NCBI GenBank assembly: GCA_009380075.1
Contig: WHSO01000026.1
Coordinates: 1-42,573, forward strand
Length of the DNA stretch: 42,573 bases
Source: Alphaproteobacteria bacterium
GTDB taxonomy: Bacteria; Pseudomonadota; Alphaproteobacteria; SMXQ01
Direction of reading: 5' to 3'
The position numbers and the translations under genes are program-made. The notes beneath the pieces were generated by a model. That model did not search any database. It saw only the letters and a program-made list of their open reading frames with translations, and had not been told where the DNA came from. Within the stretch, counting starts at the first letter, position 1. Every line of letters starts with the position of its first letter. Below are positions 10,730 to 26,775 of this stretch, piece by piece.

Positions 10730-11578
10730 TCAGTTGACCCGTTCCCAGATGTCCACGTCGACCTCCCAGCCCTTGTTCTGGGTCAGGTCGAAGCCGTTGC
10801 CGTCGGGGTCGAGCACGCGGTACTCGGCGTAGGGACGGACTTCCGGCCGGTCCGCCACCGGCACCTTGCCGTGGCTCAACTGGGCGACCTTCTGGCTCGC
10901 GTCGCGCATGAGGAAGCCGAAATGGTGGATGCCGAAGCGGCGTTCCTCGAAGCTCTCCTCGTTGCCGTCATGGCCGATGCGGTTGTAAAGCGCAAAGCCC
11001 TGCGGGTCGTGGGTGCGGTAATAGGGATGCAGGGCGAGGTTGGTCCGCCCGTCGCCCATGAAGCAGTTGAATCGTCCCTGGTTCCGGCGTTCCTGGGTCG
11101 TGCCCAGCTCACGCATGCCGAACAGCGCTGTGAAGAAATCGGCGCAGCGCTGGGGCTGGAGTGTGTGGATGGCGATATGGCCGATGCGGGGCAGGCGGCG
11201 CTCCGCAGTTTTGACGCCGAAGGCCCGTTCGGAGAGGGTCACCGGGTTGCACTCGGGATCGAAAATGCGGACTTCGCCGTAATGCGTGCCGCCGGGCTCC
11301 TTCAGCGCGACGCCCCCGGGGATCAGTTCGCGGTAGCGGCGTAGCACCTCGTCGATGTCGTCGACGGCCATGCCGATGTGATGAAGACCGGTATCGCGGC
11401 GCAATTCCATCAGCGACGCCCGCTGGCGGAACAATGTCAGGTTGAAATAGCCGTCGGTCAGCGAAATGTCGCCGTCCGCCGAACGGCCAAGCTCATCCAT
11501 CCCGATCTCGTCGCGATAGAATTCGGCCAGCCCGTCGGTATCCCGGCTGACGACCGCGAGATAGCGAATCTGTCCCAT
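10730..11578 (-). CDS. VOC family protein with two domains
   Basis: A 282-residue protein with two vicinal-oxygen-chelate folds, laid out like an extradiol dioxygenase. Domain 1 starts at IRYLAVVSRD, where the first His ligand is missing, and continues through LHHIGMAVDD. Domain 2 starts at IGHIAIHTLQ near residue 132, has IHHFGFLMRDA, and ends in DPDGNGFDLTQ. The full ligand set (His, His, Asp) is therefore in domain 2 only, as expected when the C-terminal domain is catalytic. The third ligand is Asp instead of the usual Glu, as in domain 1 of the VOC protein at 329-1144. It stands alone between converging and diverging neighbours and has its own terminator. GGGGAGG lies about 10 bases before the ATG. 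Substrate unknown. Confidence 0.8.
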   Translation of the reverse strand: MGQIRYLAVVSRDTDGLAEFYRDEIGMDELGRSADGDISLTDGYFNLTLFRQRASLMELRRDTGLHHIGMAVDDIDEVLRRYRELIPGGVALKEPGGTHYGEVRIFDPECNPVTLSERAFGVKTAERRLPRIGHIAIHTLQPQRCADFFTALFGMRELGTTQERRNQGRFNCFMGDGRTNLALHPYYRTHDPQGFALYNRIGHDGNEESFEERRFGIHHFGFLMRDASQKVAQLSHGKVPVADRPEVRPYAEYRVLDPDGNGFDLTQNKGWEVDVDIWERVN

Positions 11579-13574: not shown

Positions 13575-14966
13575 CTACTTGGATTTGCAGTCGATCTTGA
13601 CGGCTTCCTCGTTATTGCCGGGGTAGGCGATCTCGCAGGTCATGCCGGGCTTGAGCTCGGCGCGCATGGCGTCGGTGCCGTCGACCTCGATCCCGGTGCG
13701 TGAGCCGGAAACCTTGGCCTTCTGCACCTTGCCGTCCACCGTGAACGTGACGTCACGGCCCTTTTTTCCGACCTTGTCGAGCGTGGACGTGACGACCTCC
13801 AGCTTCAATCCCCTGGCGGAGAACCACATCGGGTCCCAGAAACGCATCAGTTTCTTGAGGTCGTTTTCCATCGCCTCGGGCTCGCGGAAGGCGATCCTCT
13901 TGCCGAGGATCTCGTCGGGGAAGGCGAGGAATTCGCGCCGGTGCAGGTCCTTGTGCACCGGCGGCGCGTTGTTGGCGGCGAACTGGGAGACCTGGCCCTC
14001 CTTCGACATGAACCAGTTGATGAACAGGAGCGCCGCGTTCTCATGGCCGCCCTTCATGGCGAGCATTTCCGAGATCGCCATCGGTACCGGTTCCGGGCAA
14101 TGCCAGGCGATGGGGGCGCCCTTGGGGATCATCTGGCTGACGCGATAGGCCGCGGACGGCAATGCCACGTCGAATTCGCCCGCCGTCGCCAGGCTGATCA
14201 GGGCGTTCATGCCCTCCTTGCGCAACTGCGGCTTGACGTCGGTGAACAGCTTGCGCGCGTATTCGCGGATCGCGTTTTCGCCCTTGATGTCCCACATGGA
14301 CAGAAGCCACAGGTTCGGCCGGTTGCCCATGCCGATCTTGCCGTTGCGCAGCTTGGGGTTGGTCAGCAGGTCGTCCCAGGTCTTGGGCAGGTCGGATTTC
14401 TTGATCGCCTTGGTGTTATAGGACATGCACCAATACCGCAGGCGCTGGCCGATCCAACCGCCTTCCTTGTCCTTCATGCCGTCGGGCACGTTCTTCCAGT
14501 TGGGAATCTGCCGCAGGTCAAGGATGGCGCCCAGTTCCTTGAACGAGGAGAACTTGGCGCCGACGCCCGACAATACGTCCGTAACCACCCGGCCGCTCTT
14601 GAACGCGAGCAGGGGCTTGATCACCCGATCATGGCGCGTGGCGCGGGAATAGCTGAATTTTACGAAGGGGTAACGTTCGATGAACGGCGCCACCATCCGG
14701 TCGAACTGGTCCGCGTCCCAGGTGCCGCCGACGATCAGCTGCCCTTCCTTTTTGGCGCCGTCGATCCACTTCTGCGGCATTTTCAACTCGGCATCGAGCC
14801 CGGCAAGCACCTCCGCCGGCAGGCGGGTCTTCTTCATGATCGCCTGGGTCGCCTTGGGCAGGTCGGCTGCCGCCGCGTCCTGGGCAGGTACGCCCAGGCC
14901 GGCACCCGCGAGCAGGCTGGCCGTCACGAGCACCAAGCTGCCGGATGTGAGGATGTGTCGTGTCAT
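13575..14966 (-). CDS. ABC-type substrate-binding protein 1 with extra C-terminal domain
   Basis: A 463-residue periplasmic binding protein of the ferric/thiamine-like (type 2) fold. The signal peptide runs from MTRHILTSG to about residue 33 (ending near AAAADLP). The lobes contain WDADQFDRMVAPFIERYPFV, RYWCMSYNTKAI and WHCPEPVPMAISEM. After about residue 385 comes an unusual beta-rich domain of about 75 residues with KVSGSRT, LKPGMTCEI and a second Cys at the C-terminus. Binding proteins 2 and 3 share this domain. The ATG at 14966 has GGGAGA upstream and fits the signal peptide; the open frame beyond it has no family sequence. It is the last gene of the operon and is followed by a strong terminator. 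No permease or ATPase is encoded in this operon. Ligand unknown. Confidence 0.85.
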   Translation of the reverse strand: MTRHILTSGSLVLVTASLLAGAGLGVPAQDAAAADLPKATQAIMKKTRLPAEVLAGLDAELKMPQKWIDGAKKEGQLIVGGTWDADQFDRMVAPFIERYPFVKFSYSRATRHDRVIKPLLAFKSGRVVTDVLSGVGAKFSSFKELGAILDLRQIPNWKNVPDGMKDKEGGWIGQRLRYWCMSYNTKAIKKSDLPKTWDDLLTNPKLRNGKIGMGNRPNLWLLSMWDIKGENAIREYARKLFTDVKPQLRKEGMNALISLATAGEFDVALPSAAYRVSQMIPKGAPIAWHCPEPVPMAISEMLAMKGGHENAALLFINWFMSKEGQVSQFAANNAPPVHKDLHRREFLAFPDEILGKRIAFREPEAMENDLKKLMRFWDPMWFSARGLKLEVVTSTLDKVGKKGRDVTFTVDGKVQKAKVSGSRTGIEVDGTDAMRAELKPGMTCEIAYPGNNEEAVKIDCKSK

Positions 14967-15043
14967 GTGTGTCTCCCTGCGTTCTGGTTCTTCATTGCGG
15001 TCGTGGACGGGTGGGGCCACCGTGCGCCGAGCAGAACGGACGC

Positions 15044-15520
15044 TCAACCTCCGCCGCCGTGGCCGAGCGGTTGCACCTCGTTGTAGATTGCGTCTTCGTC
15101 GCGCCGCCACAGGACCTCGAGGAAATTGCCGGTGGGATCGCGGAAATAAACTGATTCGCCGAACGGCCCGTGCTGGGGATGGCTGACCGGACCTTCGAAC
15201 GGCACGCCACCGGCCCTGAGCTGATCGAGAATGCCGCCGAAGCGGCCCTTCGGCACACAGAAGGCATGGCGCACCCGGTTCTCGCCGCGCAAGGTTTCCG
15301 GCGGCGGTACGTCCATCCAGTCTTCGGTCAGCATCACCGCGAAAAGGTAGTCGTCGAGCATCAGCGAGGTGTGCACGGAGCGCCCCCGCAAGGCGTCCTG
15401 GGTCTTGAAGTTGACCCGGCTGTGCACGGTCGCGCCGAGGATCTTGCAGTAAAAATCCTCCGCCGCCTTGAGATCGTGTACGCAGATACCGCTATGGGAA
15501 ATGCTTTCGACTCCGGCCAT
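15044..15520 (-). CDS. Small VOC family protein 1
   Basis: A 158-residue single-domain VOC protein. A complete 2-His-1-Glu set can be read: His of ISHSGICVHD (about residue 9), His of RVRHAFCV (about 84) and Glu of DPTGNFLEVLWRR (about 137). It is therefore likely a metal-dependent dioxygenase, isomerase or lyase acting in the cytosol. It starts only two bases after the stop of VOC-Rieske fusion 1 (GGAGGG upstream), so the two are co-translated and probably work together. The same pair recurs at 21479-22771. Protein 2 of that pair shares the LSHSGI-type start, the KGRSVH-type middle and the DPSGNFLELLWRRDE-type end. The Gly-rich tail (HGGGG) is odd but harmless. Substrate unknown. Confidence 0.83.
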   Translation of the reverse strand: MAGVESISHSGICVHDLKAAEDFYCKILGATVHSRVNFKTQDALRGRSVHTSLMLDDYLFAVMLTEDWMDVPPPETLRGENRVRHAFCVPKGRFGGILDQLRAGGVPFEGPVSHPQHGPFGESVYFRDPTGNFLEVLWRRDEDAIYNEVQPLGHGGGG

Positions 15521-15522
15521 GA

Positions 15523-16380
15523 TCAGCCCTCCATTCGTGCGCTTTCGCGCGTTTCCTTTTCGTCGCGCGCGGGCAGCTCGGTCAGTCCCGCGGGATCGAA
15601 TTGCGCGCCCGGGCGCGCCGGCACCGCCTGTTCCGGCCCGTAGGCCTCACGGGCGAAGAACCGGTCGGTGTCCACCACGACCCGGCCCGCGCCATCCACC
15701 TGCACCGGGTTGAGGCGCATGGGCGCGCATCCCATGCGGCCATGGTAGCAGCCGGTGCGGTCGAACTTGGCGCCGTGGAACGGGCAGTAGAAATGCCAGC
15801 TCTCCTTCTGCCAGATGGTGATTCCGTTCTTGTGGGTGCACCATGACGATATCGCGAGGAAGCCGGCGTCCTCGCGCACCAGGAAGAACCGGCCCTTCCG
15901 GTAGGGTGTGACGCTGCCGACCGGGAAATCGTCGATGTGCCCCATCACCACAGTGCCGGTGCCCGAACGCAGCGCCTCGGTGCCTTCCTCGCCGAAGGCC
16001 TGGATCTGGAAGCGGTTGCCGTCGGGGTCGTGGATGTCCATGTTGTATTCACCGACCGCACGGAAGCTCTGGCGCGGATCGATCCCGGACTCATAGCCCG
16101 TGGCTTCCAGGCGGTCGCGCGCCTGCTTGAACTGCTCGATGGTCAGGAGCCAGGCGTGGTGGATCGACCCGCCCGACGCGGGGTAGGAAGGGACGTCGTC
16201 CACCTCGACCAGCAGCAGGCGCTGGCGCGTGTTCATGGCGAGCAGGGAATTGGGCCGGTTGTCGGCGACGAGGTTGCGGCCGAGCACGTCGAGCCCGATG
16301 ACGTCCCGATAGAATGCCTCGGAACGCTCGAGATCCGAACATTCGACCACCAGATGCGAAAACGCGCCGTTGAGCGCCAT
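15523..16380 (-). CDS. VOC-Rieske fusion protein 1
   Basis: A 285-residue fusion. Residues 1-130 form a VOC fold with His9 (AFSHLVVE) and His74/His75 (SIHHAWLL). Gln125 sits in DPDGNRFQIQ, where active family members have Glu. Residues 145-235 form a Rieske [2Fe-2S] domain with Cys181 and His183 (CTH) and Cys199 and His202 (CPFH), the spacing C-x-H-x15-C-x2-H. No signal peptide or membrane segment is seen, so it is cytosolic. AAGGAG precedes the ATG. It lies between binding protein 2 and small VOC 1 in the operon. A Rieske cluster joined to a VOC domain suggests electron transfer to a mononuclear metal site, but no reductase gene is nearby. A paralogue is at 21962-22771. The domains are clear; the function is unknown. 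Confidence 0.85.
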   Translation of the reverse strand: MALNGAFSHLVVECSDLERSEAFYRDVIGLDVLGRNLVADNRPNSLLAMNTRQRLLLVEVDDVPSYPASGGSIHHAWLLTIEQFKQARDRLEATGYESGIDPRQSFRAVGEYNMDIHDPDGNRFQIQAFGEEGTEALRSGTGTVVMGHIDDFPVGSVTPYRKGRFFLVREDAGFLAISSWCTHKNGITIWQKESWHFYCPFHGAKFDRTGCYHGRMGCAPMRLNPVQVDGAGRVVVDTDRFFAREAYGPEQAVPARPGAQFDPAGLTELPARDEKETRESARMEG

Positions 16381-16452: not shown

Positions 16453-17820
16453 CTACTTGCAGGCGACGGCGGCCGCTTCCTTGCCGTTCTCCGGCGCCTC
16501 GATCACGCAATTCATGCCGGCCTTCAGCTTGCTCCGGCTTTCCTTCTTGCCGCCGATCGTCAGCTTGGTGCGGCTGCCGGACACCTCGACCTCCCGGGTC
16601 TTGCCCTCATGCTTGAAGGATATCGTCCGCCCGCGCTGCCGGACCGCGTCGAGGGTGGTAGAGACCGTGATCAGCTTGGTCTTGTCCTCTCCGGCGTTCT
16701 GCTTCCACAGCACGTCCCAGGCCTTGAACAGATCCTTGGTGATCAATTCCGCTTCGGGCCCGCGGAAGGCGATCTTCTTGCCGAGGATTTCATCGGGGAA
16801 GGACAGGAACTCCTTGGTCTGCAGGTCCTTGTGGACGGGCGGCGCCTGGTCGGCGGCGAACTGGGCGATCTGGCCCTCCTTGGACAGGAACCAGTTGGTG
16901 AAGATCTTGGCCGCCGCCGTGTTGGGCGTGCCCTTGACGATGCCCATTTCCGACACCGCCAGCGGTACCGGCTCCGGACAGTGCCAACTGATCGGCGCGC
17001 CCTTGTCGACATACTGCTTGGTGCGGTAGGCCGCCGACGGCATTGCGGCCTGGAATTCGCCCGCCACCGCCAGCGCCACCATGGCGTTGGTGCCTTCCTT
17101 GCGCATCTGCGGCTTCACCTTTTCGAGGAAGTCCTTCATGTAGCGCTTGGTCCAGTCGGGACCCTTCTCCCCCCACAGCATCAGCAGCCAGAGCTGCGGA
17201 CGGTTGACCAGGCCGATCTTGTTGCCGTGCCAGGCGGTATTGGTGAGCAGGTCTTCCCATGTCCGGGGCAGGTCCGCTTTCTTCACCATCTTGGTGTTGT
17301 AGGAGATGCACCAGTAGCGCAGGCGCTGGCCGACCCAGTGGCCATTGGGATCCTTCATGCCGGTGGGGATATTGTTCCGGAAGGCGGGGACGTCGCTCAT
17401 GTCTTCGAGCGCATTGGCATCGCGGAAAAGGAAATAGCCGCCGCCGAATCCGGTGACGATATCGGCGAGATAGCGCTTTTCCTTCCACGCAATCAGCGTC
17501 TTGACCACCCGCTGGTTGTAGGACGCGCGGGAATAGCTGATGTTGAGGAATGGGTAGCGGCCTTTGAACGGCTCTATCATCTTGCGGAACTGGTCGTTGT
17601 CCCAGGTCGACAGGATGATGAGCTTCTTGCCGGCCTTGGCTTCGTCCAGCCACTTGGCGGGCACCTCGAGCTCCTTGTCGAGGCCCGACAGGATGCTTTC
17701 AGGCAGCTTCAACTCGCTCAGCATGGCCTTGGTCGATGCCGGCAGCTCCGCCGCCGCCACGGGTGCCGCCGCCAGCCCGGCCGCGGCCAGCGCCGCGAAC
17801 AGTTTCGTCTTCCGGTTCAT
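16453..17820 (-). CDS. ABC-type substrate-binding protein 2 with extra C-terminal domain
   Basis: A 455-residue periplasmic binding protein, paralogous to the proteins at 13575 and 17874. The signal peptide is MNRKTKLFAALAAAG through AAPVAAAELP (cleavage near residue 24). Shared family marks are YPFLNISYSRASYNQRVVKT, RYWCISYNTKMV, LPRTWEDLLTN and WHCPEPVPLAVSEM. The C-terminal beta-rich domain (from about residue 375) has VSGSRTKLTIGGKK, LKAGMNCVIE and a terminal Cys-Lys. GGGAGAG precedes the ATG at 17820. It lies 53 bases after binding protein 3 and is followed by a strong hairpin. The paired cysteines in the ligand lobe (YWC and WHCPEP) and in the tail domain could form disulfides in the periplasm. 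Ligand unknown. Confidence 0.85.
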   Translation of the reverse strand: MNRKTKLFAALAAAGLAAAPVAAAELPASTKAMLSELKLPESILSGLDKELEVPAKWLDEAKAGKKLIILSTWDNDQFRKMIEPFKGRYPFLNISYSRASYNQRVVKTLIAWKEKRYLADIVTGFGGGYFLFRDANALEDMSDVPAFRNNIPTGMKDPNGHWVGQRLRYWCISYNTKMVKKADLPRTWEDLLTNTAWHGNKIGLVNRPQLWLLMLWGEKGPDWTKRYMKDFLEKVKPQMRKEGTNAMVALAVAGEFQAAMPSAAYRTKQYVDKGAPISWHCPEPVPLAVSEMGIVKGTPNTAAAKIFTNWFLSKEGQIAQFAADQAPPVHKDLQTKEFLSFPDEILGKKIAFRGPEAELITKDLFKAWDVLWKQNAGEDKTKLITVSTTLDAVRQRGRTISFKHEGKTREVEVSGSRTKLTIGGKKESRSKLKAGMNCVIEAPENGKEAAAVACK

Positions 17821-17873
17821 GATGCTCTCCCTTTGCAATCGTTTTCCCAGATCCTGTGCCCCGGCGGGTACGT

Positions 17874-19247
17874 CTACCGGCACGACAGTTCCTGCGCCTC
17901 CTTGGCGCCTTCGGCCATGGTGACCTTGCACGTCATCCCCTGCTTGAGGGTGCTGCGGCTTTCCTTCTTGCCGGCGATGGTCAGCCTGGTGCGGCTGCCG
18001 CTGACGCCAAATTCGACCGTCTTGCCCTCGTGCTTGACCGTAACCAGCGCACCCCGCCTCTTGACGGCGTCGAGACGGGCGTCGAAGGTGACGATGCGCA
18101 GCTTGTCCTCGCCCGTACCCTTCTTCCAGATCGGCTCCCACACCACCGATAGCCGCCGGGTGTCCTCGCGGTCATCGGAGCGCCGGAACGCGATCTTGCG
18201 GCCCAGAATCTCGTCGGGGAAGGCGAGGAACGCCTTCGTCTGCAATTGCGGGTGGATCGGCGGCGCGCCGTCCGCGGCGAACTGGGCGATCTGGCCTTCC
18301 TTCGACAGGAACCAGTTGGTGAAGACCTTCGCCGCGTGCAGGTGCGGCGCGTTCTTCAGGAATCCGAGGCCCGATACTGCGAGCGGCACCGGTTCCGGGC
18401 AATGCCAGCCGACCGGCGCGCCTTTCCTGGAGTATTGCGCGACGCGGTAGGCGGCGGACGGAATCGCGATGTCGAATTCGCCCGCGACGACGAGCGAGAT
18501 CAGCGCATTGGTGCCTTCCTTGCGGAGCTGCGGCTTGACGTCGGTGATCAGGTGGTTGACGAAATTGGCGACCCACGGCTCGCCCTTTGCGCCCCACAGC
18601 ATCAGCAGCCACAGCTCGATGCGGTTGGCGACGGCGATCTTGCCGTTGAAGAACTTCTTGCTGGTCAGAATGTCGTCCCAGGTCTTCGGCAGGTCGGCCT
18701 TTTGGACCTTGTCGGTATTGTACGACATGCACCAGTAGCGCAGGCGCTGGCCCAGCCACTTGTGCTTGGGATCGTGCATGCCCTCGGGAAGCAGCCTGTA
18801 ATTGGGGATATCGGAAAGATTCTCCAGCGCGTCGGCTTTGTCGAACATGTCGTAGCTGGTGTCGAAACCGGTCAGGATATCGGTGACGTAGCGCCCTTCC
18901 TTGAATGCGATCAGAGTCTTGATGACGCGGGCGTTGTAGCTCGCGCGGGAATAGTTGAACTTGATGAACGGATAGCGTTCCTGGAACGGCCCAACCAAGG
19001 CGCGGAACTGCTTGGGATCCCAGGTCGAGAGGATGGTGAGTTCGCCTTCCTTTTTCGCCTTTTCGATCCAGCCGGCCGGGACCTTCAGTTCTGCATCGAG
19101 GCCCTGAAGCAGGCTTTCAGGCAGGTTCGTCTGTTTCAGGATGTCCCGGGTGGCCTTGGGCAGGTCTGCCGCGCCGGCTCCGGCGGCGGGGAGGGGGACC
19201 AGGCCGAACGCGACGAGTACAACGCAGACTCTCAGCAATCGTTTCAT
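17874..19247 (-). CDS. ABC-type substrate-binding protein 3 with extra C-terminal domain
   Basis: A 457-residue periplasmic binding protein, the first of the three paralogues to be transcribed. The signal peptide is MKRLLRVCVVLVAFGL through GAGAADLP (cleavage near residue 26). Diagnostic stretches are ELTILSTWDPKQFRALVGPF, RYWCMSYNTDKV, LPKTWDDILTSKKF and WHCPEPVPLAVSGLG. The tail domain has GVSGSRTRLTIAGKK, LKQGMTCKV and ends SCR. The ATG at 19247 follows a GGAGG-type site. It is 37 bases downstream of the M24-fold gene and 53 bases upstream of binding protein 2. Tandem copies of a binding protein usually mean several related ligands or a dosage effect. No dedicated permease is seen in the operon. 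Confidence 0.85.
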   Translation of the reverse strand: MKRLLRVCVVLVAFGLVPLPAAGAGAADLPKATRDILKQTNLPESLLQGLDAELKVPAGWIEKAKKEGELTILSTWDPKQFRALVGPFQERYPFIKFNYSRASYNARVIKTLIAFKEGRYVTDILTGFDTSYDMFDKADALENLSDIPNYRLLPEGMHDPKHKWLGQRLRYWCMSYNTDKVQKADLPKTWDDILTSKKFFNGKIAVANRIELWLLMLWGAKGEPWVANFVNHLITDVKPQLRKEGTNALISLVVAGEFDIAIPSAAYRVAQYSRKGAPVGWHCPEPVPLAVSGLGFLKNAPHLHAAKVFTNWFLSKEGQIAQFAADGAPPIHPQLQTKAFLAFPDEILGRKIAFRRSDDREDTRRLSVVWEPIWKKGTGEDKLRIVTFDARLDAVKRRGALVTVKHEGKTVEFGVSGSRTRLTIAGKKESRSTLKQGMTCKVTMAEGAKEAQELSCR

Positions 19248-19284
19248 GGTTTCCTCCCTTGCGGTCGACCGCCCCGTGCAGGCC

Positions 19285-20505
19285 TCAGCCGCCGGCGATA
19301 GCGAGGTCGTGTGGCCGTTTGCCCATGCGCCGGCCGCCTTTGGCGGTGACGATGGTGGTATCGCCCCAGGTGCAGATGTGGCTGCGGTTGGCGGTCTGGG
19401 CATGGGGCTTGAAAATGAACACCATGTTCTCTTTCATCTGGGTCGCGAGCTGTTCCGGATCGCGGGCATGGCTGGTGATGATGGGGCCGTCGTCGCCGGC
19501 GCCGCGGCCGTGCATGGTCAGTCCCGCGACGGCGCCGGCGGCGGGGCCGGTCGACGGTGCCGCCTGCTTGCCGGCGGCGGAGGCGGCGTCGGACAGTTCC
19601 TTCACCGTGGCGCCGGGGCGCAGCATCTCGCGCACCGTTTCGAACACCTCGCGCTGGATCTTGATCAGCTCCTTGTGCACCGGGTCGGCGACCTCGACGA
19701 ACACGGGCTGCACCGCCTGGGAGCGATAACCCATCCAGTTCGCCTCGAGCTCGTTGATGATGAGATCGCCGCGCTGGAGGATGCGGTGCGACGGGCGCGT
19801 CAGGGTACGGACGACATTGGGACCGGAAATCCAGTTGCAGTGCACTGGAATCTCGGACCCGTTCTTCATCATCGCGTACTGCGCCGCGGCCCAGACCTCC
19901 CAATCCTTGACACCGGGCCGCGCGGTGGCGACCTTGGCCTTGATGCCTTCCTCGATGATGTCGATGGATTTCTGCAGGGCGGCGACTTCCTCGTCGCTCT
20001 TGACGTAGCGCGCCTCGACCAGGATGTTCGACGCATCCACCAGCTTGGCCTTGGGGAAGGCCTCGCGGATCTGGCGCCAGAAGCCGAGGCCGACCGTGCC
20101 CTCCGGGGTGCGGGTGCCGGGGATTTCGCCGAGCCCGGTGATGCCGATGGTGCCGTTCTCGACATTCAGTTCCTTGAGGCGTTCGACGGCAACCTTGCCG
20201 TAGTTGCGCCGCGCCTCGCGCACGTCCTTGGTCCAGTCTTGCACCGTCGGCCAGCGCGGCGCGGCCGAGGTCGCGATTGCCGTGATCTCATCGTGCAGGG
20301 GGAAGACGACGGCGATGTCGGCATCGCTGCCGCCGCCGACATGGCTCAGCCAGCGGCAGTTGGCCTGGAAATCCGTGGAATGGCCGGTGTTGTTGGGGCA
20401 GACGATGACGTCGATGCCCTGGGCGGCCATGGTGGTGCGGACCAACTTCCAGCGGCGGTCGCGTTCGGCAATGGAAAAGCGCGGGTATTCGTGAAGCTGG
20501 GTCAT
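19285..20505 (-). CDS. M24-fold (creatinase/aminopeptidase P-like) protein lacking the metal ligands
   Basis: A 406-residue pita-bread-fold protein: an N-terminal domain (residues 1-160) with AQGIDVIVCPNNTGH, then a catalytic-type domain. Aligned by eye with aminopeptidase P and prolidase, the usual metal ligands are replaced. The two Asp of the D-x(10)-D region become Glu and Gln (INELEANWMGYRSQ). The two Glu near the end become Lys (NMVFIFKP) and Gly (TWGDTTIVT). The His of MHGRGAG remains. A metallopeptidase role is therefore unlikely; creatinase, the known metal-free member, is the better comparison, which would mean C-N hydrolysis of a small molecule. It lies inside the VOC-Rieske operon, between the double VOC and binding protein 3. 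The actual reaction is unknown. Confidence 0.8.
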   Translation of the reverse strand: MTQLHEYPRFSIAERDRRWKLVRTTMAAQGIDVIVCPNNTGHSTDFQANCRWLSHVGGGSDADIAVVFPLHDEITAIATSAAPRWPTVQDWTKDVREARRNYGKVAVERLKELNVENGTIGITGLGEIPGTRTPEGTVGLGFWRQIREAFPKAKLVDASNILVEARYVKSDEEVAALQKSIDIIEEGIKAKVATARPGVKDWEVWAAAQYAMMKNGSEIPVHCNWISGPNVVRTLTRPSHRILQRGDLIINELEANWMGYRSQAVQPVFVEVADPVHKELIKIQREVFETVREMLRPGATVKELSDAASAAGKQAAPSTGPAAGAVAGLTMHGRGAGDDGPIITSHARDPEQLATQMKENMVFIFKPHAQTANRSHICTWGDTTIVTAKGGRRMGKRPHDLAIAGG

Positions 20506-20548
20506 GGTGTTCTCTCGGGGCTCCCTGTTGATGTTCTTGCCGGGCGGT

Positions 20549-21469
20549 TCACGCGTCGGCGCGGACGCAAAGCTCGATGAAGTTGCCGCCGGGGTCCTTG
20601 AAGAACAGGGCCTGCCGGACCGGGCCGTCGGTTTCCGTCCTGGGGCCGACGAAGGGCCAGTTTGTCTCCGCCAGCCGGCGGCGGGTTGCGTCGAGGATCG
20701 ATTCGGTCACCGCGAAGGCGGTCCGCGGCGTGCCGACCAGCGCCTCTTCGGGCGGTTCCTGGAAATGCTGGTTGGCAAGGTAGAGCGCGAACGGGACCTC
20801 GCCGATCCGCAGGTAGATCTGCAGGTTGACGCGCGGCACCGCGCGCTGGTTGACCATCGAGGTGTAGCGCTTGTCCATGCGCCGCGTGCCGGGCGCCATG
20901 TCCTCCTTGCCGTCGGCCCAGAGCTGGGCGCGGGCGTAATCCTCGGTCTTCCAGCCGACGCGGTGCTCGACCGCACAGGCGAGCGTCCCGATATAGAAGG
21001 TTTCCGCCCACCACATATTGGCGACCTGGATCGCCGCGTGGTCGAGGGCAGGCGCGCCGCCGTTGCGGGCGGCAGAGGCGACGAGCTGGACCCGGTTGCC
21101 CGCGGGATCGAAGAAATAGAAATTGTCCCTCTCTTCGGCCGGGCGGTCTTCCTTGTAGGTCCTGACTTCGATGCCCTGGACCGCAAGCCTCTCTTCGATG
21201 CGCCGGCGCGCGTCGTGCCCGACGGCGTAGGCCTGATGGACGCCGGTGGCGCTCAGGTCGGGGCGGTCTTTCCTTTCGCTCAGCACGAGAAACGTGCCAT
21301 CCGCCCCGCCCAGCGCAACCGAGCTGCCGCAATCGCCGATCATATCGGTGCCCGCGGCGGTGAAGCCCAAGGTGTCGCGGTAGAAATCCGCGACCGCGAG
21401 GTCGTCCACCTCGACGACGAGATGCGACAGACCGGCCGCCTTCAGTCCGTGACCATTGACGGGCAACAC
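20549..21469 (-). CDS. VOC family protein with two domains (operon member)
   Basis: A 306-residue protein with two VOC folds: the first starts at LSHLVVEVDD (about residue 15) and the second at LDHAAIQVANM (about 153). Domain 1 ends DPAGNRVQLVAS (Gln in place of Glu) and domain 2 ends DPGGNFIELCVR (Glu present). The central His of domain 2 is not obvious (TAFAVTES), so the metal site may be incomplete. The start is a GTG at 21469, with GGGAG upstream, only nine bases after the stop of small VOC 2. The M24-fold gene follows 43 bases later. The close spacing argues that it is part of the same pathway. It is distinct in sequence from the two other two-domain VOC proteins in the window. Confidence 0.8.
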   Translation of the reverse strand: MLPVNGHGLKAAGLSHLVVEVDDLAVADFYRDTLGFTAAGTDMIGDCGSSVALGGADGTFLVLSERKDRPDLSATGVHQAYAVGHDARRRIEERLAVQGIEVRTYKEDRPAEERDNFYFFDPAGNRVQLVASAARNGGAPALDHAAIQVANMWWAETFYIGTLACAVEHRVGWKTEDYARAQLWADGKEDMAPGTRRMDKRYTSMVNQRAVPRVNLQIYLRIGEVPFALYLANQHFQEPPEEALVGTPRTAFAVTESILDATRRRLAETNWPFVGPRTETDGPVRQALFFKDPGGNFIELCVRADA

Positions 21470-21478
21470 CGCGCTCCC

Positions 21479-21946
21479 TCAGCCGACGTCCAGATCGGGC
21501 GCTTTGGCGTAGGCGACACCTTCATCGCGCCGCCACAGGAGCTCGAGGAAATTGCCGCTCGGATCCTTGAAGTAAACCGACTGGCCGAACGGGCCCTTTT
21601 CCGGGTGGTCGACCGGGCCCTTGAACGGCACGTGGTGTTCGCCGAGCCGAGCGAGCGCGGCGTCGAAATCCGCACGGCGGATGGCAAAGGAATGCCGGAA
21701 TCCGTTGACACCCATCAACTTGTCCCCGGGCGGCATGGGCATGAAGTCGGGCGCCAGCACGAGCGCGAACAGGAAGTCGCCGAGGGTATAGCTCTGATGG
21801 ACGGAACGGCCCTTCAGCGTGTCCTCGGTGACGAAGTTGACGGCGCCGTGCACCTCGGCGCCGAGGATGCCGCAATAGAAGCTCTCCGCCTCCTTGAGGT
21901 CATGCACCGAAATGCCGGAATGGGACAGGGTTTCGACGTCGGCCAT
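21479..21946 (-). CDS. Small VOC family protein 2
   Basis: A 155-residue single-domain VOC protein, paralogue of the one at 15044-15520. The full 2-His-1-Glu set is visible: His of LSHSGISVHD (about residue 8), His of NGFRHSFAI (about 83) and Glu of DPSGNFLELLWRR (about 137). It follows VOC-Rieske fusion 2 after 15 bases, with GGAGAAAC ahead of the ATG, repeating the gene order of the first pair. It is the more conventional VOC enzyme of the pair, likely a dioxygenase, lyase or isomerase with a divalent metal. Substrate unknown. Confidence 0.83.
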   Translation of the reverse strand: MADVETLSHSGISVHDLKEAESFYCGILGAEVHGAVNFVTEDTLKGRSVHQSYTLGDFLFALVLAPDFMPMPPGDKLMGVNGFRHSFAIRRADFDAALARLGEHHVPFKGPVDHPEKGPFGQSVYFKDPSGNFLELLWRRDEGVAYAKAPDLDVG

Positions 21947-21961
21947 GGCGGTTTCTCCGGT

Positions 21962-22771
21962 TCAGGCGGTCTGGGGTTCGGCGTAACGGCTGGATGCGCC
22001 GGCGTGCGCGGGCACCGCCTGGTCGGGATGATAGCCGTCGCGCTCGATGGCGGTGTCGGGATCGACGGTGATGCGGCCGTCGGCCCCGATGGACAGGGGG
22101 TGCAGGCGCAGCGTCGGGCAGTGCCGCGAACAGGGCAGGGATTCGCCCTTGCGGTTGAACATCGCTCCGTGCATCGGGCAGTAGAAGTGCCAATGCTCCT
22201 TCTTCCAGGACAGGAGCCCGTTCATGTGCGTGCACCAGCGTGACACGGCGAGGAACCCGTCATCCAGGCGGACGAGGAAGAACTTGCCCTTGACGTAGGG
22301 CTTGACCGTACCGACCGGGAAATCATCCATGTGGCCGCAGGCGATGGGACCGACGTGCTCGTTCACGATCGCCGTGGCCTCGGGGCCGTAGGCCTGAATC
22401 TGGAAGCGGTGGCCGTCCGGGTCGAAAACGTCGAGGGAGTTCTCGCCGGTCGCGCGGAATTGCGCCCGGCTGTCGGAGATATCGAAGCCCGCCTTGGCCA
22501 GCCGTTCCTTGGCGCGTGCGAATTCGTCGATGGTCAGCAGCCAGGCATGGTGAATGGACGACGAATTGGGGCGGATGGCGACGACCTCGGGCGCCTCGAC
22601 CAGGAGGACGCGCTGGCGCGTGTTCATGGCGAGCAGCGAGTTGGGCCCTTCGTCGGTCACAAGGTCGCGGCCGATGACATCGAGGCCGAACACGTCGCGG
22701 TAGAACTTCTCCGACCGGTCGAGATTCGTCACATGGAGGACGATGTGCGAAAATCCGTCGATCATGGCCAT
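21962..22771 (-). CDS. VOC-Rieske fusion protein 2
   Basis: A 269-residue fusion, paralogous to the protein at 15523-16380; both contain the identical segment PNSLLAMNTRQR. The VOC part has His9 (GFSHIVLHV), His74/His75 (SIHHAWLL) and Gln124 in DPDGHRFQIQ in place of the usual Glu. The Rieske part has Cys180 and His182 (CTH) and Cys198 and His201 (CPMH), again spaced C-x-H-x15-C-x2-H. It is the first structural gene after lysR, whose stop is about 155 bases upstream on the same strand. GGGGAGG precedes the ATG at 22771. That the Glu-to-Gln change is shared by both copies suggests a feature of the subfamily and not decay. The fused Rieske domain probably delivers or accepts electrons; partner and substrate are unknown. 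Confidence 0.85.
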   Translation of the reverse strand: MAMIDGFSHIVLHVTNLDRSEKFYRDVFGLDVIGRDLVTDEGPNSLLAMNTRQRVLLVEAPEVVAIRPNSSSIHHAWLLTIDEFARAKERLAKAGFDISDSRAQFRATGENSLDVFDPDGHRFQIQAYGPEATAIVNEHVGPIACGHMDDFPVGTVKPYVKGKFFLVRLDDGFLAVSRWCTHMNGLLSWKKEHWHFYCPMHGAMFNRKGESLPCSRHCPTLRLHPLSIGADGRITVDPDTAIERDGYHPDQAVPAHAGASSRYAEPQTA

Positions 22772-22926: not shown

Positions 22927-23847
22927 TCACGCCGCGCCCGCCACCTTCCGCCCCTCGGGTTTGGACGAGTTCAGGTAACGTTGAAGGAAATCGAGCAGCA
23001 GAGCGACCTTGGGCTGTGGATAGCGGGTCCGGGTGTAGAACGCGCGGATGCAGCGGTCGGACGTGTGCTGGCCGTCGAAGATGGAAATCAGCCGGCCTTC
23101 CTTCAGGTGCCGCAGCGCCGTGTAGCTCGGCAGCGGGCAAATGCCGATCCCCAGAAGCACCGCCTTCTGGAGGACGGCACCGGAATTGGTCGCGAAACTG
23201 CCGTGGACGCGCACGACGTAGGGGCCGTCCGGGCCGTTGAACGACCATTCATGGGGCGTGCGCCGTCCCTTGTGCACGAGGCAGTTGTGTTCAGGGAGAT
23301 CCACCGGTTTTTCCGGGTACCCGTGTTTATCGAAGTACTCCGGCGTGCCGACGATGTGGTAATCGACCGGCATCAGGATGCGCGATTCGATGCTGGCGTC
23401 CTTGAGATCGGCGCTGCGGATCACGACGTCGATGCCGTGCTCGATCAGGTTCACCGGCTCGGTGCCGATCATCAGGTCGACCGAGACTTCGGGATAACGT
23501 TGGGCGAAGGCAAGAATCCCTCCCGAAATGATTCGCAGGCCGACGCCGAAGGTCGAATAGACCTTGATCTGCCCGGAGAGCCTGTCGGCGAAGGACGCAG
23601 CTTCCCCCGCCGCCTGGGCCATATCCGACAGAGCCTTGGAGCAACGGCGGTAGAACTGGGTGCCCGCTTCGGTCAACGACAACCGGCGCGTGGAGCGGTT
23701 GAGCAACTGAACTCCGAGCCGCTCCTCCAACGCCGTGACGCGCTTGGAGACCACCGAGGGCGACAGATGCAGTTCCTTGGCGGCGGCGGAAAAGCTCTTG
23801 CGTTCCACGACACGCGCATAAATCGCAATCTCATTGAGATCGTCCAA
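22927..23847 (-). CDS. LysR family transcriptional regulator
   Basis: A 306-residue LysR-type regulator. The N-terminal winged helix-turn-helix is clear: DDLNEIAIYARVVERKSFSA, AAAKELHLSPSVVSKRVTAL and LGVQLLNRSTRRLSLTEAG (about residues 1-60). The periplasmic-binding-like effector domain follows (IKVYSTFGVGLRIISGG and later VDLMIGTEPVNLIEHGIDVV). I place the start at a TTG (23847) preceded by GGAAAGG. The open frame continues upstream to 23949, but that part has no family sequence and a promoter-like element lies within it. It is encoded directly upstream of, and on the same strand as, the VOC-Rieske operon, so control of that operon is likely. The effector would be a pathway intermediate or the imported compound. 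Confidence 0.88.
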   Translation of the reverse strand: MDDLNEIAIYARVVERKSFSAAAKELHLSPSVVSKRVTALEERLGVQLLNRSTRRLSLTEAGTQFYRRCSKALSDMAQAAGEAASFADRLSGQIKVYSTFGVGLRIISGGILAFAQRYPEVSVDLMIGTEPVNLIEHGIDVVIRSADLKDASIESRILMPVDYHIVGTPEYFDKHGYPEKPVDLPEHNCLVHKGRRTPHEWSFNGPDGPYVVRVHGSFATNSGAVLQKAVLLGIGICPLPSYTALRHLKEGRLISIFDGQHTSDRCIRAFYTRTRYPQPKVALLLDFLQRYLNSSKPEGRKVAGAA

Positions 23848-23889
23848 ATCGGGGCCCTTTCCACCGGCAAATATTGGCTTGGAAAGGGG

Positions 23890-23919
23890 ATAATAGACCA
23901 ATATTACGTATTTTTGGAA
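23890..23919 (-). promoter_or_regulatory. Probable lysR promoter
   Basis: On the minus strand a -10 box TATTAT (23890-23895) and a weak -35 TTCCAA (23914-23919) lie 18 bases apart, about 40 bases before the chosen TTG start of lysR. This placement is one reason for choosing the shorter start. Confidence 0.4.
23898..23917. promoter_or_regulatory. Imperfect palindrome over the lysR promoter (possible operator)
   Basis: A 20-base inverted repeat (CCAATATTAC against GTATTTTTGG, eight of ten positions matching) is centred on CG and fills the spacer and part of the -35 region of the lysR promoter. Autorepression by the LysR protein at such a site is common in the family. Confidence 0.4.
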
Positions 23920-24018
23920 GGGTAATCGTTGTGTGCTGCCGACAATCAAGGTGGGCTCTGCCGTCCGTCAGGAGCCGGTCTATCCCGCTTCCCGCGGATT
24001 CGCGGGCCGTACCAAATC

Positions 24019-24441
24019 TCAAGCCGGGGTGAATTTCGGCAGGCTGACCCCGGGGCTGACGTCGTCGAAGGTGACCCTGACTTTCAGGTCGCAGGTAACC
24101 TGGTCTGCCGGAATCCCGACGATGTTGGACAGCAGCCGCGGCCCCTCGTCGAGCTCGATCACCGCGACCACGTAGGGTATCTCTCCCTCCCAGCCCTTGT
24201 GGTAGAGCCGTTGGTAAGTGACGAAGCTGAACACCCGGCCGGTGCCTGTCACCTCGGTCCAGTCGTGATCGCCCGACAGGCAGTGCACGCAGCGCTGCGA
24301 TGGCGGGAACCAGAACTTCCCGCAGGCGCGGCATTTTTGCAGGACCAGTCGGTGGTCGCGGGCGGCGTCCCAGAACGGCTGCGATTCGGCGGACGGCCGG
24401 GGCAGGGGCTTGAGGTAGGTGTCTTGCGTTTCGGCGCTCAT
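24019..24441 (-). CDS. DUF35 Zn-ribbon/OB-fold protein
   Basis: A 140-residue OB-fold protein with an N-terminal zinc ribbon: Cys-x2-Cys in KCRACGKFW and Cys-x2-Cys in QRCVHCLSG (about residues 36-54). The OB part contains GRVFSFVTYQRLYHKGW and PYVVAVIELDEGPRLLSN. DUF35 proteins bind acyl-CoA and pair with SCP2-type thiolases, as in the ChsH2-DUF35/Ltp2 steroid side-chain aldolase and in archaeal HMG-CoA synthase complexes. Its ATG overlaps the thiolase stop by four bases (ATGA), which indicates translational coupling and a complex. It is the last gene of the trio CoA-transferase, thiolase, DUF35. Confidence 0.9.
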   Translation of the reverse strand: MSAETQDTYLKPLPRPSAESQPFWDAARDHRLVLQKCRACGKFWFPPSQRCVHCLSGDHDWTEVTGTGRVFSFVTYQRLYHKGWEGEIPYVVAVIELDEGPRLLSNIVGIPADQVTCDLKVRVTFDDVSPGVSLPKFTPA

Positions 24442-25625
24442 GTGGCGGTTCCGAGGATCAGGGTGGAATGGCATACGGTATTGCCGCCGTGGCCGGAGAC
24501 GATGCAGGTTTTGGCATCCTTGACCTGCCGGTCGTTGCCATAGATGCCCTGCAACTGGCGCACGCCCTCGACGATCTGCAGCACCCCTTCGCAGTGGGCC
24601 TCCGACAGCTGGCCGCCCGAGGTGTTGGTTGGCAGCCGGCCGTCGAGCTTGAGCGCGCCGGAAGCGACGAAGGGGCCGCCCTCGCCCTTCCTGCAGAAGC
24701 CGTAATCCTCGATCTGCGTCATCACCATGTAGGTGAAGCAGTCGTAGATCTGGGCGCAGTCGATGTCGTCGGGGCCCAGGCCGGCCATGGCGTAGGCTCG
24801 CGCGCTCGACGGCCCCGCCGCGGTATTGACCATGTTGTCGTCGGCGAACCAGCCGGTGAGGTTGTTGTGGGTGCCGAACCCCTTGATCAGCACCGGCCGC
24901 CGGCGCAGGTCCTTCGCCCGCTCGCGCGTCGTCACGATCATGGCGCCGGCGCCGTCGGAACGGAGCGAACAATCGAGCAGGCCGAACGGCTCCACGATCA
25001 TGCGCGCTTCGCGGTAGTCCTCCAGCGTCAGCGGCTTTTTCATCATGGCTTCGGGATTGCGCAGCGCGTGCTCGCGGAAGGCCACGGCGATGGCGCCGAA
25101 CTGGTCGCGCGTGGTGCCGTAGAGGTGCATGTGCCGACGGGCGCCGAACCCGTGCATGGCCGGGGCGCCGAACAGGCCGTATTCGGGGCCAAACTCCGAC
25201 GATTCCATTTCCTCCGAGCGGGTAGCGGAGCGCATCCGCGCCTCCTCGCTGCGGTGGGTGCGCGACCAGGAATCGCGGCCGTAGCCGCACAGCACGGTAG
25301 TGCACAAACCGGCCTCGATCGCCATGACGGCGAGGATGACCGAGAGGATCTGGCTGGCGCCGCCGTTGGTCGCCGTGGTGGAGAAGTTGGCGTTGATGCC
25401 GAGCCGTTCGCCGATCAGCTGGTGGAAGGTGTAGATGTCGTCGGGCCCGCGGACCAGGAGGCTGTCGATGTCGCGGGCCCTGAGCCCGGCATCGTCCAGC
25501 GCGTTGACGCAGGCCTGTTCCACCAGCCCGATGGCGCTCATGTGCGGAACCTTGCCGAGCGGCGAGTTGCCGACGCCGACGATGGCGTATTTGTCGCGGT
25601 AGGCGGTGTTGGGCTCGATGTTCAT
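24438..25625 (-). CDS. SCP2-type thiolase-like protein without catalytic Cys (probable aldolase partner of DUF35)
   Basis: A 395-residue thiolase-fold protein starting MNIEPNTAYRDKYAIVGVG. The usual nucleophile position (Cys-Ala-Ser) reads ATNGGAS, so the first Cys is Gly, and the C-terminal Cys-x-Gly-Gly loop reads SGHGGN without Cys. Such Cys-less SCP2 thiolases, paired with DUF35, include the Ltp2 retro-aldolases that release a short acyl-CoA from a beta-hydroxyacyl-CoA. Other fold marks are YDCFTYMV and NTSGGQLSEAH. Its start overlaps the CoA-transferase stop by four bases, and its end overlaps the DUF35 start by four. A carbon-carbon-cleaving role on a CoA-activated substrate is inferred; condensation would need a cysteine that is absent. 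Confidence 0.85.
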   Translation of the reverse strand: MNIEPNTAYRDKYAIVGVGNSPLGKVPHMSAIGLVEQACVNALDDAGLRARDIDSLLVRGPDDIYTFHQLIGERLGINANFSTTATNGGASQILSVILAVMAIEAGLCTTVLCGYGRDSWSRTHRSEEARMRSATRSEEMESSEFGPEYGLFGAPAMHGFGARRHMHLYGTTRDQFGAIAVAFREHALRNPEAMMKKPLTLEDYREARMIVEPFGLLDCSLRSDGAGAMIVTTRERAKDLRRRPVLIKGFGTHNNLTGWFADDNMVNTAAGPSSARAYAMAGLGPDDIDCAQIYDCFTYMVMTQIEDYGFCRKGEGGPFVASGALKLDGRLPTNTSGGQLSEAHCEGVLQIVEGVRQLQGIYGNDRQVKDAKTCIVSGHGGNTVCHSTLILGTAT

Positions 25626-26775
25626 TCCGCCGCCTTTCCCGCCCGGATGCCATAGCGCGCGAGGATTTCCGCGGTGTGCTGGCCGTGGGTGGGGGCGGGG
25701 CTGACGATCTCCGACGGCGTGTCGGAGAACGTGACCGCCCCGCCAAGCAGCTTGACCTTGCCGACCTTGGGATGGGGCAGTTCCTTGACCATGCCGAGGT
25801 GCTCGACCTGCGGGTCGGCCAGCGCCTCGTCGAGAGTGTAGATCGGTGCCGAGGGGACATCGGCGGCGAGCAACAGGTCGAGCCAGTGCTGCCGCGGCCT
25901 GGTGGAAAACACCGCCTGAAAGCCCTGGTGCAGGGTGTCGTAGGCCTTGCGCCGGTCGGCCTTGGCCTTGAAGCGCGCATCCTCGATCCATTCGGGATGG
26001 CCGGCGACCCGGCACAACCCTTCCCAGAACTTGGGCGGCGACGACAGGTGCACGACGAAGGCCTTGCCGTCGCCGCCGACGAAGGCATAGACCTGCGCTG
26101 TCTGGGTCCGGGTCTTGCGCTTGGGCACGTCGCCTTCCTCGAAATAGCGCGCCGCGTTCTCGCCGAGGAAGGCGAGCGTGGCGGCGAGAAGCGACGTCTC
26201 GACCCGCTGACCCTTGCCCGTGCGCTCACGCGCCATCAGCGCGCCGAGCACGCCATAGGCGGCCATGATCCCGGTCAGGTGGTCCGACAGCGACACGCCC
26301 ATCGGCTTGGGGTCGTCGAGGTCGGTCAGCACCGACAGCAGCGCCCCCATGGCCTGGCCGACGGTGTCGTAGCCGGCCGCTGGGCGTAGGGGCCTGTGCC
26401 GCCGAAGCCGGTGATGGAACAGTAGATCAGGCGCGGATTCGCCTTCGACAGCTCGTCCCAGCCGAGTCCGAGCCGGTCCATCGTTCCGGTGCGGTAGTTT
26501 TCGATGATGACATCGGCCTTTTCGGCGAGCGCGCGCGCCGCGGCGATGCCCTCACTGGTCTTGAGGTCGAGGATCACGCTTTTCTTGTTGCGGTTGACCG
26601 AGCCGAAAGTGGCGGAATAATCCGCCGCGCCCCAGCCGCGGAACGGGTCGCCGGTCTTCGGGTCCTCGATCTTGATGACCTCGGCCCCGAGATCGCCGAG
26701 CAGCATGCCGGCATAGGGGCCGGACACGTAGCTGGCGAGTTCCAGAACGGTCATGCCGTCGAGTGCATGGGGCAT
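25622..26775 (-). pseudogene. Family III (CaiB/BaiF) CoA-transferase gene with a one-base frameshift
   Basis: The reading frame from the ATG at 26775 (AAGGAGG upstream) encodes the N-terminal 133 residues of a CaiB/BaiF CoA-transferase: LELASYVSGPYAGMLLGDLG, IKIEDPKTGDPFRGW, and the region up to GFGGTGPYAQRP. At about 26374-26376 one base appears to be missing. The protein continues in the next frame with GYDTVGQAMGALLSVLTD and ends IRAGKAAE at 25622. The two pieces joined give a normal family length of about 383 residues. The catalytic Asp of the family lies in the second piece or at the join and cannot be placed safely by eye. The stop overlaps the thiolase ATG by four bases. The frame break could be a real mutation or a sequencing error. 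An intact enzyme would transfer CoA to a carboxylic acid. Confidence 0.85.

Follow-up and report, generated by a model that had tools for sequence, protein, structure and literature searches.

A conserved VOC–Rieske fusion protein and its VOC partners suggest a redox enzyme of several subunits, so far undescribed, in uncultured Alphaproteobacteria and Chloroflexi

A contig of 42,573 nucleotides from an alphaproteobacterial draft genome (WHSO01000026.1, assembly GCA_009380075.1; the whole stretch is hereafter called the window) encodes a protein, A, in which a VOC domain is fused to a Rieske domain. In nearly every case the gene adjoins genes for one or two further VOC proteins, B and C, which suggests a multi-subunit redox enzyme; the arrangement A+B(+C) points to an enzyme, so far undescribed, with which uncultured Alphaproteobacteria and Chloroflexi would degrade organic compounds that they import. 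Our leading reading of its chemistry, which we hold at somewhat less than an even chance, is a non-heme metal oxygenase of the VOC type whose Rieske electron donor is built in.

The gene for A lies at positions 15,523–16,380 on the reverse strand and encodes 285 amino acids from an ATG preceded by the Shine-Dalgarno-like sequence GGAAGGAGA. Residues 7–126 match the Pfam Glyoxalase family (PF00903; E 6.5e-12, 46.3 bits against a cut-off of 20.6) and residues 148–211 the Rieske family (PF00355; E 2.2e-6, 27.9 bits against a cut-off of 20.3), the domains extending over residues ~6–130 and ~142–255, respectively. A preliminary description had proposed a VOC fold at residues 1–130 fused to a Rieske domain with a complete motif (CTH and CPFH, spacing 15), and all of this is borne out. 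The motif reads C181-T-H183-x15-C199-P-F-H202, with C181, H183, C199 and H202 as cluster ligands. An AlphaFold2 model built from an alignment of 45 family sequences (mean pLDDT 91) contains two confident folds; residues ~1–130 match single VOC proteins with Z scores of 12–14, and residues 141–255 match the solved Rieske protein 9rk4 (Z 15.8, rmsd 1.9 over 110 residues). The paired beta-alpha-beta-beta-beta modules of the VOC fold are present by both PF00903 and the secondary structure of the model, and relative to the two-domain chain of the extradiol type A alone accounts for one VOC domain. Two identities were rejected. A is not an RHO alpha subunit, since the Ring_hydroxyl_A catalytic domain (PF00848, no match in A at E<=1) is absent and a VOC domain stands in its place; nor is it a FosA fosfomycin transferase, as the NCBIfam Fos-family models score at most 25.7 bits against cut-offs of ~170–300.

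The preliminary description had suggested searching for this architecture across genomes, and such a search recovered 45 homologues, down to ~31% identity, in twelve genomes from two phyla, namely one alphaproteobacterial family and four Chloroflexota genomes. The window's own genome holds two more copies, one at positions 21,962–22,771 (55% identity) and one on contig C106 (43%). A is present in eight of the 11 genomes of the organism's family, while outside it none was found among 385 genomes of the class and 299 of the phylum. The four Chloroflexota genomes yield 3 to 16 matches each, with up to about 15 copies in one; a sample of 400 Chloroflexota genomes returned A in four, all of them already in the set. 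Because the contigs were scanned by strict peptide patterns, further phyla may also carry A. Plasmids and viruses gave one partial, VOC-only plasmid match and no viral contig with A.

Each of the four Rieske ligands is invariant across the 45 members. The VOC columns are conserved almost as well, with H74 in 45/45, H9 in 44/45 and Gln (41/45) or Glu (4/45) at position 125. Purifying selection acts on both domains: between same-genus orthologues dN/dS is 0.09–0.14 for VOC and Rieske alike, and for the window's A it is 0.125 and 0.137, respectively. The invariant ligands, the low dN/dS and the fold matches of the AlphaFold2 model together argue that A is real rather than a chance motif. The window does come from a fragmented draft genome of 162 contigs, and one might suspect an artefact of assembly or annotation, or a chance joining of two genes; with the fusion recurring in 45 sequences from twelve genomes of two phyla under low dN/dS, the probability of this is negligible, and the homologues already refute it.

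In the tree of A, the alphaproteobacterial and Chloroflexota members are split by one branch with modest support (77/76), and the Chloroflexota members include a divergent clade of eight (loci L069–L072, three genes of L098, and L102), mostly followed by a single VOC gene resembling the C-terminal half of C and lacking C itself. At L098 (positions 7160–19766 of contig C277, Chloroflexota genome G690), six VOC–Rieske genes lie within ~12.6 kb, with main- and divergent-clade copies mixed. Two further loci, L074 (3897–4917) and contig C163 of genome G687 (19967–20743), hold VOC–Rieske genes that are apparently broken, either as pseudogenes or through assembly errors, with the VOC and Rieske parts in different frames and a TAA inside the match.

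The order of the operon is A (VOC–Rieske), B (single VOC) and C (double VOC). Immediately beyond A, starting 2 bp past its stop codon, lies B (15,044–15,520, reverse strand; 158 residues, Pfam Glyoxalase E 1.1e-10), and this A+B pair (15,044–16,380) is followed by a gene for a periplasmic solute-binding protein (13,575–15,110, reverse strand, true start probably within the ORF). The second copy in the window, at 20,549–22,771 on the same strand, is a complete A-B-C: a VOC–Rieske paralogue of 269 residues at 21,962–22,771, its single-VOC B at 21,479–21,946 (with H9, H85 and E135), and C at 20,549–21,469, a double-VOC protein of 306 residues with H75, Q125 and H141 (numbered by a 303-residue alignment row). 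Pfam recognises one Glyoxalase stretch in C, and the second VOC comes from an AlphaFold2 model (pLDDT 93) and its fold matches. A same-genus genome repeats this layout of the two copies. Across the family, B directly follows A in 34 of the 45 members, usually with a gap of less than 50 bp, and C follows B in 29 of 36; the remaining A genes belong mostly to the divergent clade, where the next gene also encodes a single VOC like the C-terminal half of C, or lie on short or broken contigs. The distance matrices of A and B correlate with r 0.82 and those of B and C with r 0.86, far above the permutation maxima (<=0.30); the three genes are thus inherited together, a correlation of trees that operon linkage alone would partly produce. 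With B and C conserved in the operon, a stand-alone enzyme was rejected as the main reading. The preliminary suggestion, an oxygenase of a different kind or else an enzyme under redox regulation, survives in part: it still names the best class of explanation, given the conserved metal and cluster sites and a Rieske domain mostly of the disulfide-less type, while the view of A as an enzyme on its own gives way to that of one subunit of an A-B(-C) VOC operon.

How these subunits might fit together is suggested by C. The profile of A fits the N-terminal half of C (median 29 bits, against 1 for the C-terminal half) and that of B the C-terminal half (median 32 bits, against 2 for the N-terminal half), so A+B resembles a C cut in two, to which a Rieske domain has been added. 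The model of C matches 1zsw, PcpA (4huz), 3oaj, GLOD4 and maize glyoxalase I over its full length with Z scores of 18–21 (PcpA 21.2). Its first and last parts jointly cover one BphC domain, and from these aligned ranges we infer that module 1 packs with module 4, and 2 with 3. The swapped site H75/Q125/H141 is intact in all 31 C proteins, with Gln or Glu allowed at 125, and the three other ligand pairings are intact in 0, 14 and 0 of 31. C was accordingly discarded as a standard extradiol or hydroquinone dioxygenase: the two-domain fold is present and the canonical His-His-Glu site is intact in 0/31.

VOC proteins bind metal through His, His and Glu on strands 1, 5 and 8. A profile alignment places H9, H74 and Q125 of A on the metal-binding His, His and Glu of FosA, and Gln probably replaces the usual Glu ligand in the predicted site. 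B-H9 is conserved in 36/36. By analogy with C, where only the swapped site is intact, A and B probably share one His-His-Gln metal site composed of A-H74, A-Q125 and B-H9, judging by residue conservation and the models of single chains. Most main-clade pairs also have a second site intact (A-H9, B-H85, B-E135); residue 85 is lost in 6/36 B proteins and in most divergent-clade partners, and with 30 of the 36 B sequences a His-His-Glu site could be restored in an A+B heterodimer.

The Rieske domain is probably of low potential in most members. In nearly all of the main clade, which includes the window's A, residue 186 is Gly and residue 201 mostly Phe, Met or Tyr; the cysteines of the bc1/b6f-type disulfide are missing from these two positions, and at position 204 most main-clade members have Ala in place of the hydrogen-bonding Ser. 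Rieske loops that have neither the disulfide nor this Ser are of low potential, as in Rieske ferredoxins and RHOs, and the same is predicted here. Cysteines at both 186 and 201 occur in six members of the divergent Chloroflexota clade only, and with these bc1-like residues the cluster potential may vary within the family. As to the source of electrons, the absence of a ferredoxin reductase from the window, noted earlier, holds for the whole contig in six-frame searches with profiles PF14759 and PF00970, and among the loci compared no dedicated reductase recurs near the cassette. PF14759 is the C-terminal domain of BphA4-type reductases. One such flavoprotein is encoded elsewhere in the window's genome (contig C128), and the profile matches in ten of the 11 genomes of the family, including three that lack A, the exception being genome G002, which has three A genes. 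Since PF14759 is so widespread in the family and yet not near the cassette, a shared housekeeping reductase is a possible electron source.

The neighbourhood suggests uptake and catabolism. Beside the solute-binding protein downstream of B, the window encodes two more on the reverse strand, of the SBP_bac_6 type (16,453–18,141, true start probably within the ORF) and the SBP_bac_1/8 type by Pfam (17,874–19,403); such genes recur near the cassette, and solute-binding protein and ABC-transporter genes surround it in both phyla. An M24-family hydrolase with the creatinase/aminopeptidase-P fold (19,285–20,505, reverse strand; Peptidase_M24 E 2.6e-19) recurs downstream of C, and M24-type genes are found near the cassette at 16 loci in 11 genomes. 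In some relatives the cassette is accompanied by a UbiD-type decarboxylase, benzoate-dioxygenase-like RHO alpha subunits, double cupins or a muconate-cycloisomerase-like gene, none of which stands beside it in the window. While not uniform, the context of transporters and aromatic-degradation genes suggests that aromatic or similar compounds are taken up and catabolised. A LysR-type gene (22,927–23,949, reverse strand; HTH_1/LysR_substrate) lies immediately upstream of the operon on the same strand, a candidate operon regulator as judged by position only. Next to it, at 24,019–26,350 (reverse strand) and upstream of the cassette, are genes for a CoA-transferase III, a thiolase and ChsH2-type OB-fold/zinc-ribbon proteins. 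Outside the cassette the window encodes two more proteins with two VOC (Glyoxalase) stretches each, at 329–1144 and 10,730–11,578, both on the reverse strand; the former adjoins an aldo/keto reductase, an SDR and an amidohydrolase.

In the reading that we favour, A would be the subunit that carries electrons in a multi-component metalloenzyme of the VOC fold, whose genes are arranged as A-B or A-B-C. Its VOC half and B would fit together in the manner of the two halves of C, swapped as in FosA, glyoxalase I and PcpA, and A-His74, A-Gln125 and B-His9 would form a facial site for a metal, probably non-heme Fe(II). A flavoprotein reductase encoded elsewhere would pass electrons to the Rieske cluster, and the cluster would pass them to the VOC metal for the activation of O2, whereupon an organic substrate, probably aromatic or heterocyclic and imported by the neighbouring ABC transporters, would be oxygenated or cleaved. 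C would probably be a second VOC component with a His-His-Gln site of its own. ChaP provides a precedent, being a VOC oxygenase that works with flavin-activated oxygen (PMC12281474). Against an oxygenase, a His-His-Gln site is unusual for an iron enzyme of this kind, and many VOC enzymes are non-redox catalysts (glyoxalase I, FosA, an epimerase); moreover, the operon has no dedicated reductase, and PF14759 also occurs in relatives without A and is absent from G002.

That missing reductase is less of a difficulty if the Rieske domain serves as a reactivator built into the enzyme. In that case the VOC component, be it A+B or C, would be a dioxygenase of the extradiol or hydroquinone type, which draws no outside electrons per turnover, and the cluster would re-reduce iron that had strayed to Fe(III); one electron per rescue suffices, so a reductase in the operon would be unnecessary. 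The full-length match of the C model to PcpA, a ring-cleaving hydroquinone dioxygenase (Z 21.2), speaks for this idea. Ferredoxin XylT likewise re-reduces the oxidised iron of catechol 2,3-dioxygenase. However, XylT is a plant-type ferredoxin, neither Rieske nor fused. The xylT gene of meta-cleavage clusters is described as a chloroplast-type ferredoxin gene (PMC6362003). In addition, the site equivalent to the His-His-Glu of PcpA is degenerate in C (0/31 intact) and in 6/36 B proteins, so PcpA-like chemistry is not a strictly conserved feature, and we regard reactivation as unlikely. Somewhat more improbable is a redox enzyme whose Rieske cluster and VOC metal act jointly on a substrate, reducing or oxidising it with no O2 incorporated, for instance by reductive cleavage or dehydrogenation. 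Both centres are conserved, and a His-His-Gln site, being neutral, would favour another metal or another redox state; yet some neighbours are genes of aerobic aromatic degradation, and all VOC redox enzymes known to us use O2. We give a similarly low probability to a Rieske domain that serves as redox sensor or structural module while the VOC subunits carry out ordinary glyoxalase-, epimerase- or lyase-type chemistry. The nearest folds of A (FosA, FosX, glyoxalase I and drug-binding proteins) are indeed mostly non-redox or non-catalytic, but all 45 members, diverse as they are, keep the cluster ligands, the Rieske part is selected about as strongly as the VOC part, and paralogues multiplied alongside transporters suggest catabolism more than regulation.

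In the open-access literature, covered mostly at the level of titles and abstracts, no description was found of Rieske and VOC in one protein. To our knowledge, Rieske oxygenases have one common catalytic fold, and the VOC oxygenases we know of take their electrons from the substrate, ChaP with its flavin-activated oxygen excepted. A categorically new class of oxygenase is possible, and the conserved VOC–Rieske operon would join the Rieske and VOC oxygenases in a testable new enzyme class. A broader proposal, held more doubtfully than the oxygenase reading itself, is a new Rieske-dependent architecture in which two subunits share a VOC His-His-Gln site fed by the Rieske domain fused to one of them, multiplied into many paralogues for the catabolism of resistant organic matter in uncultured bacteria. 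In SAR202, paralogue expansions have been linked to the oxidation of such matter; the ~15 copies of A in one Chloroflexota genome, many beside uptake genes, resemble them (PMC6946804), and by this likeness the family could matter for carbon turnover.

Several known systems share parts of this design. PcpA (PDB 4huz, 2,6-dichloro-p-hydroquinone 1,2-dioxygenase), 1zsw and 3oaj have, like C, four beta-alpha-beta-beta-beta modules with 1 packing against 4 (Z 21), and A+B seems to distribute this arrangement over two genes. The metal site of PcpA, which we take to be formed by modules 1 and 4, is the one degenerate in C; the site conserved here lies in modules 2 and 3 with Gln for Glu, and PcpA, unlike A, has no Rieske domain. 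RHOs, like the predicted A+B complex, bring a Rieske cluster together with a mononuclear metal site, but the partner domain is VOC here and not Ring_hydroxyl_A, and the Rieske domain is C-terminal here and N-terminal in RHOs; the enzyme would work like an RHO by analogy only, and belongs neither to that family nor, judged by which sites are intact, to the extradiol dioxygenases. The closest solved structures to the Rieske half are Kuenenia kuste4569 and kustd1480 (PDB 9rk4 and 9rk3; Z 15.8 and 14.2), whose solved chains contain no VOC domain and have a disulfide-type loop (CTHLGC/CPCHG) that is missing from the main clade of A. FosA-type VOC proteins (e.g. PDB 1npb) are nearest to the N-terminal half in both sequence and fold, whereas FosA itself, a glutathione transferase, has Glu as a ligand and lacks a Rieske domain. 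ChaP, from chartreusin biosynthesis, is like the proposed A+B a VOC enzyme in need of externally activated oxygen, and its fold matches A with Z ~12; where ChaP is a VOC oxygenase using oxygen activated by a flavin (PMC12281474), A has a Rieske domain fused to it.
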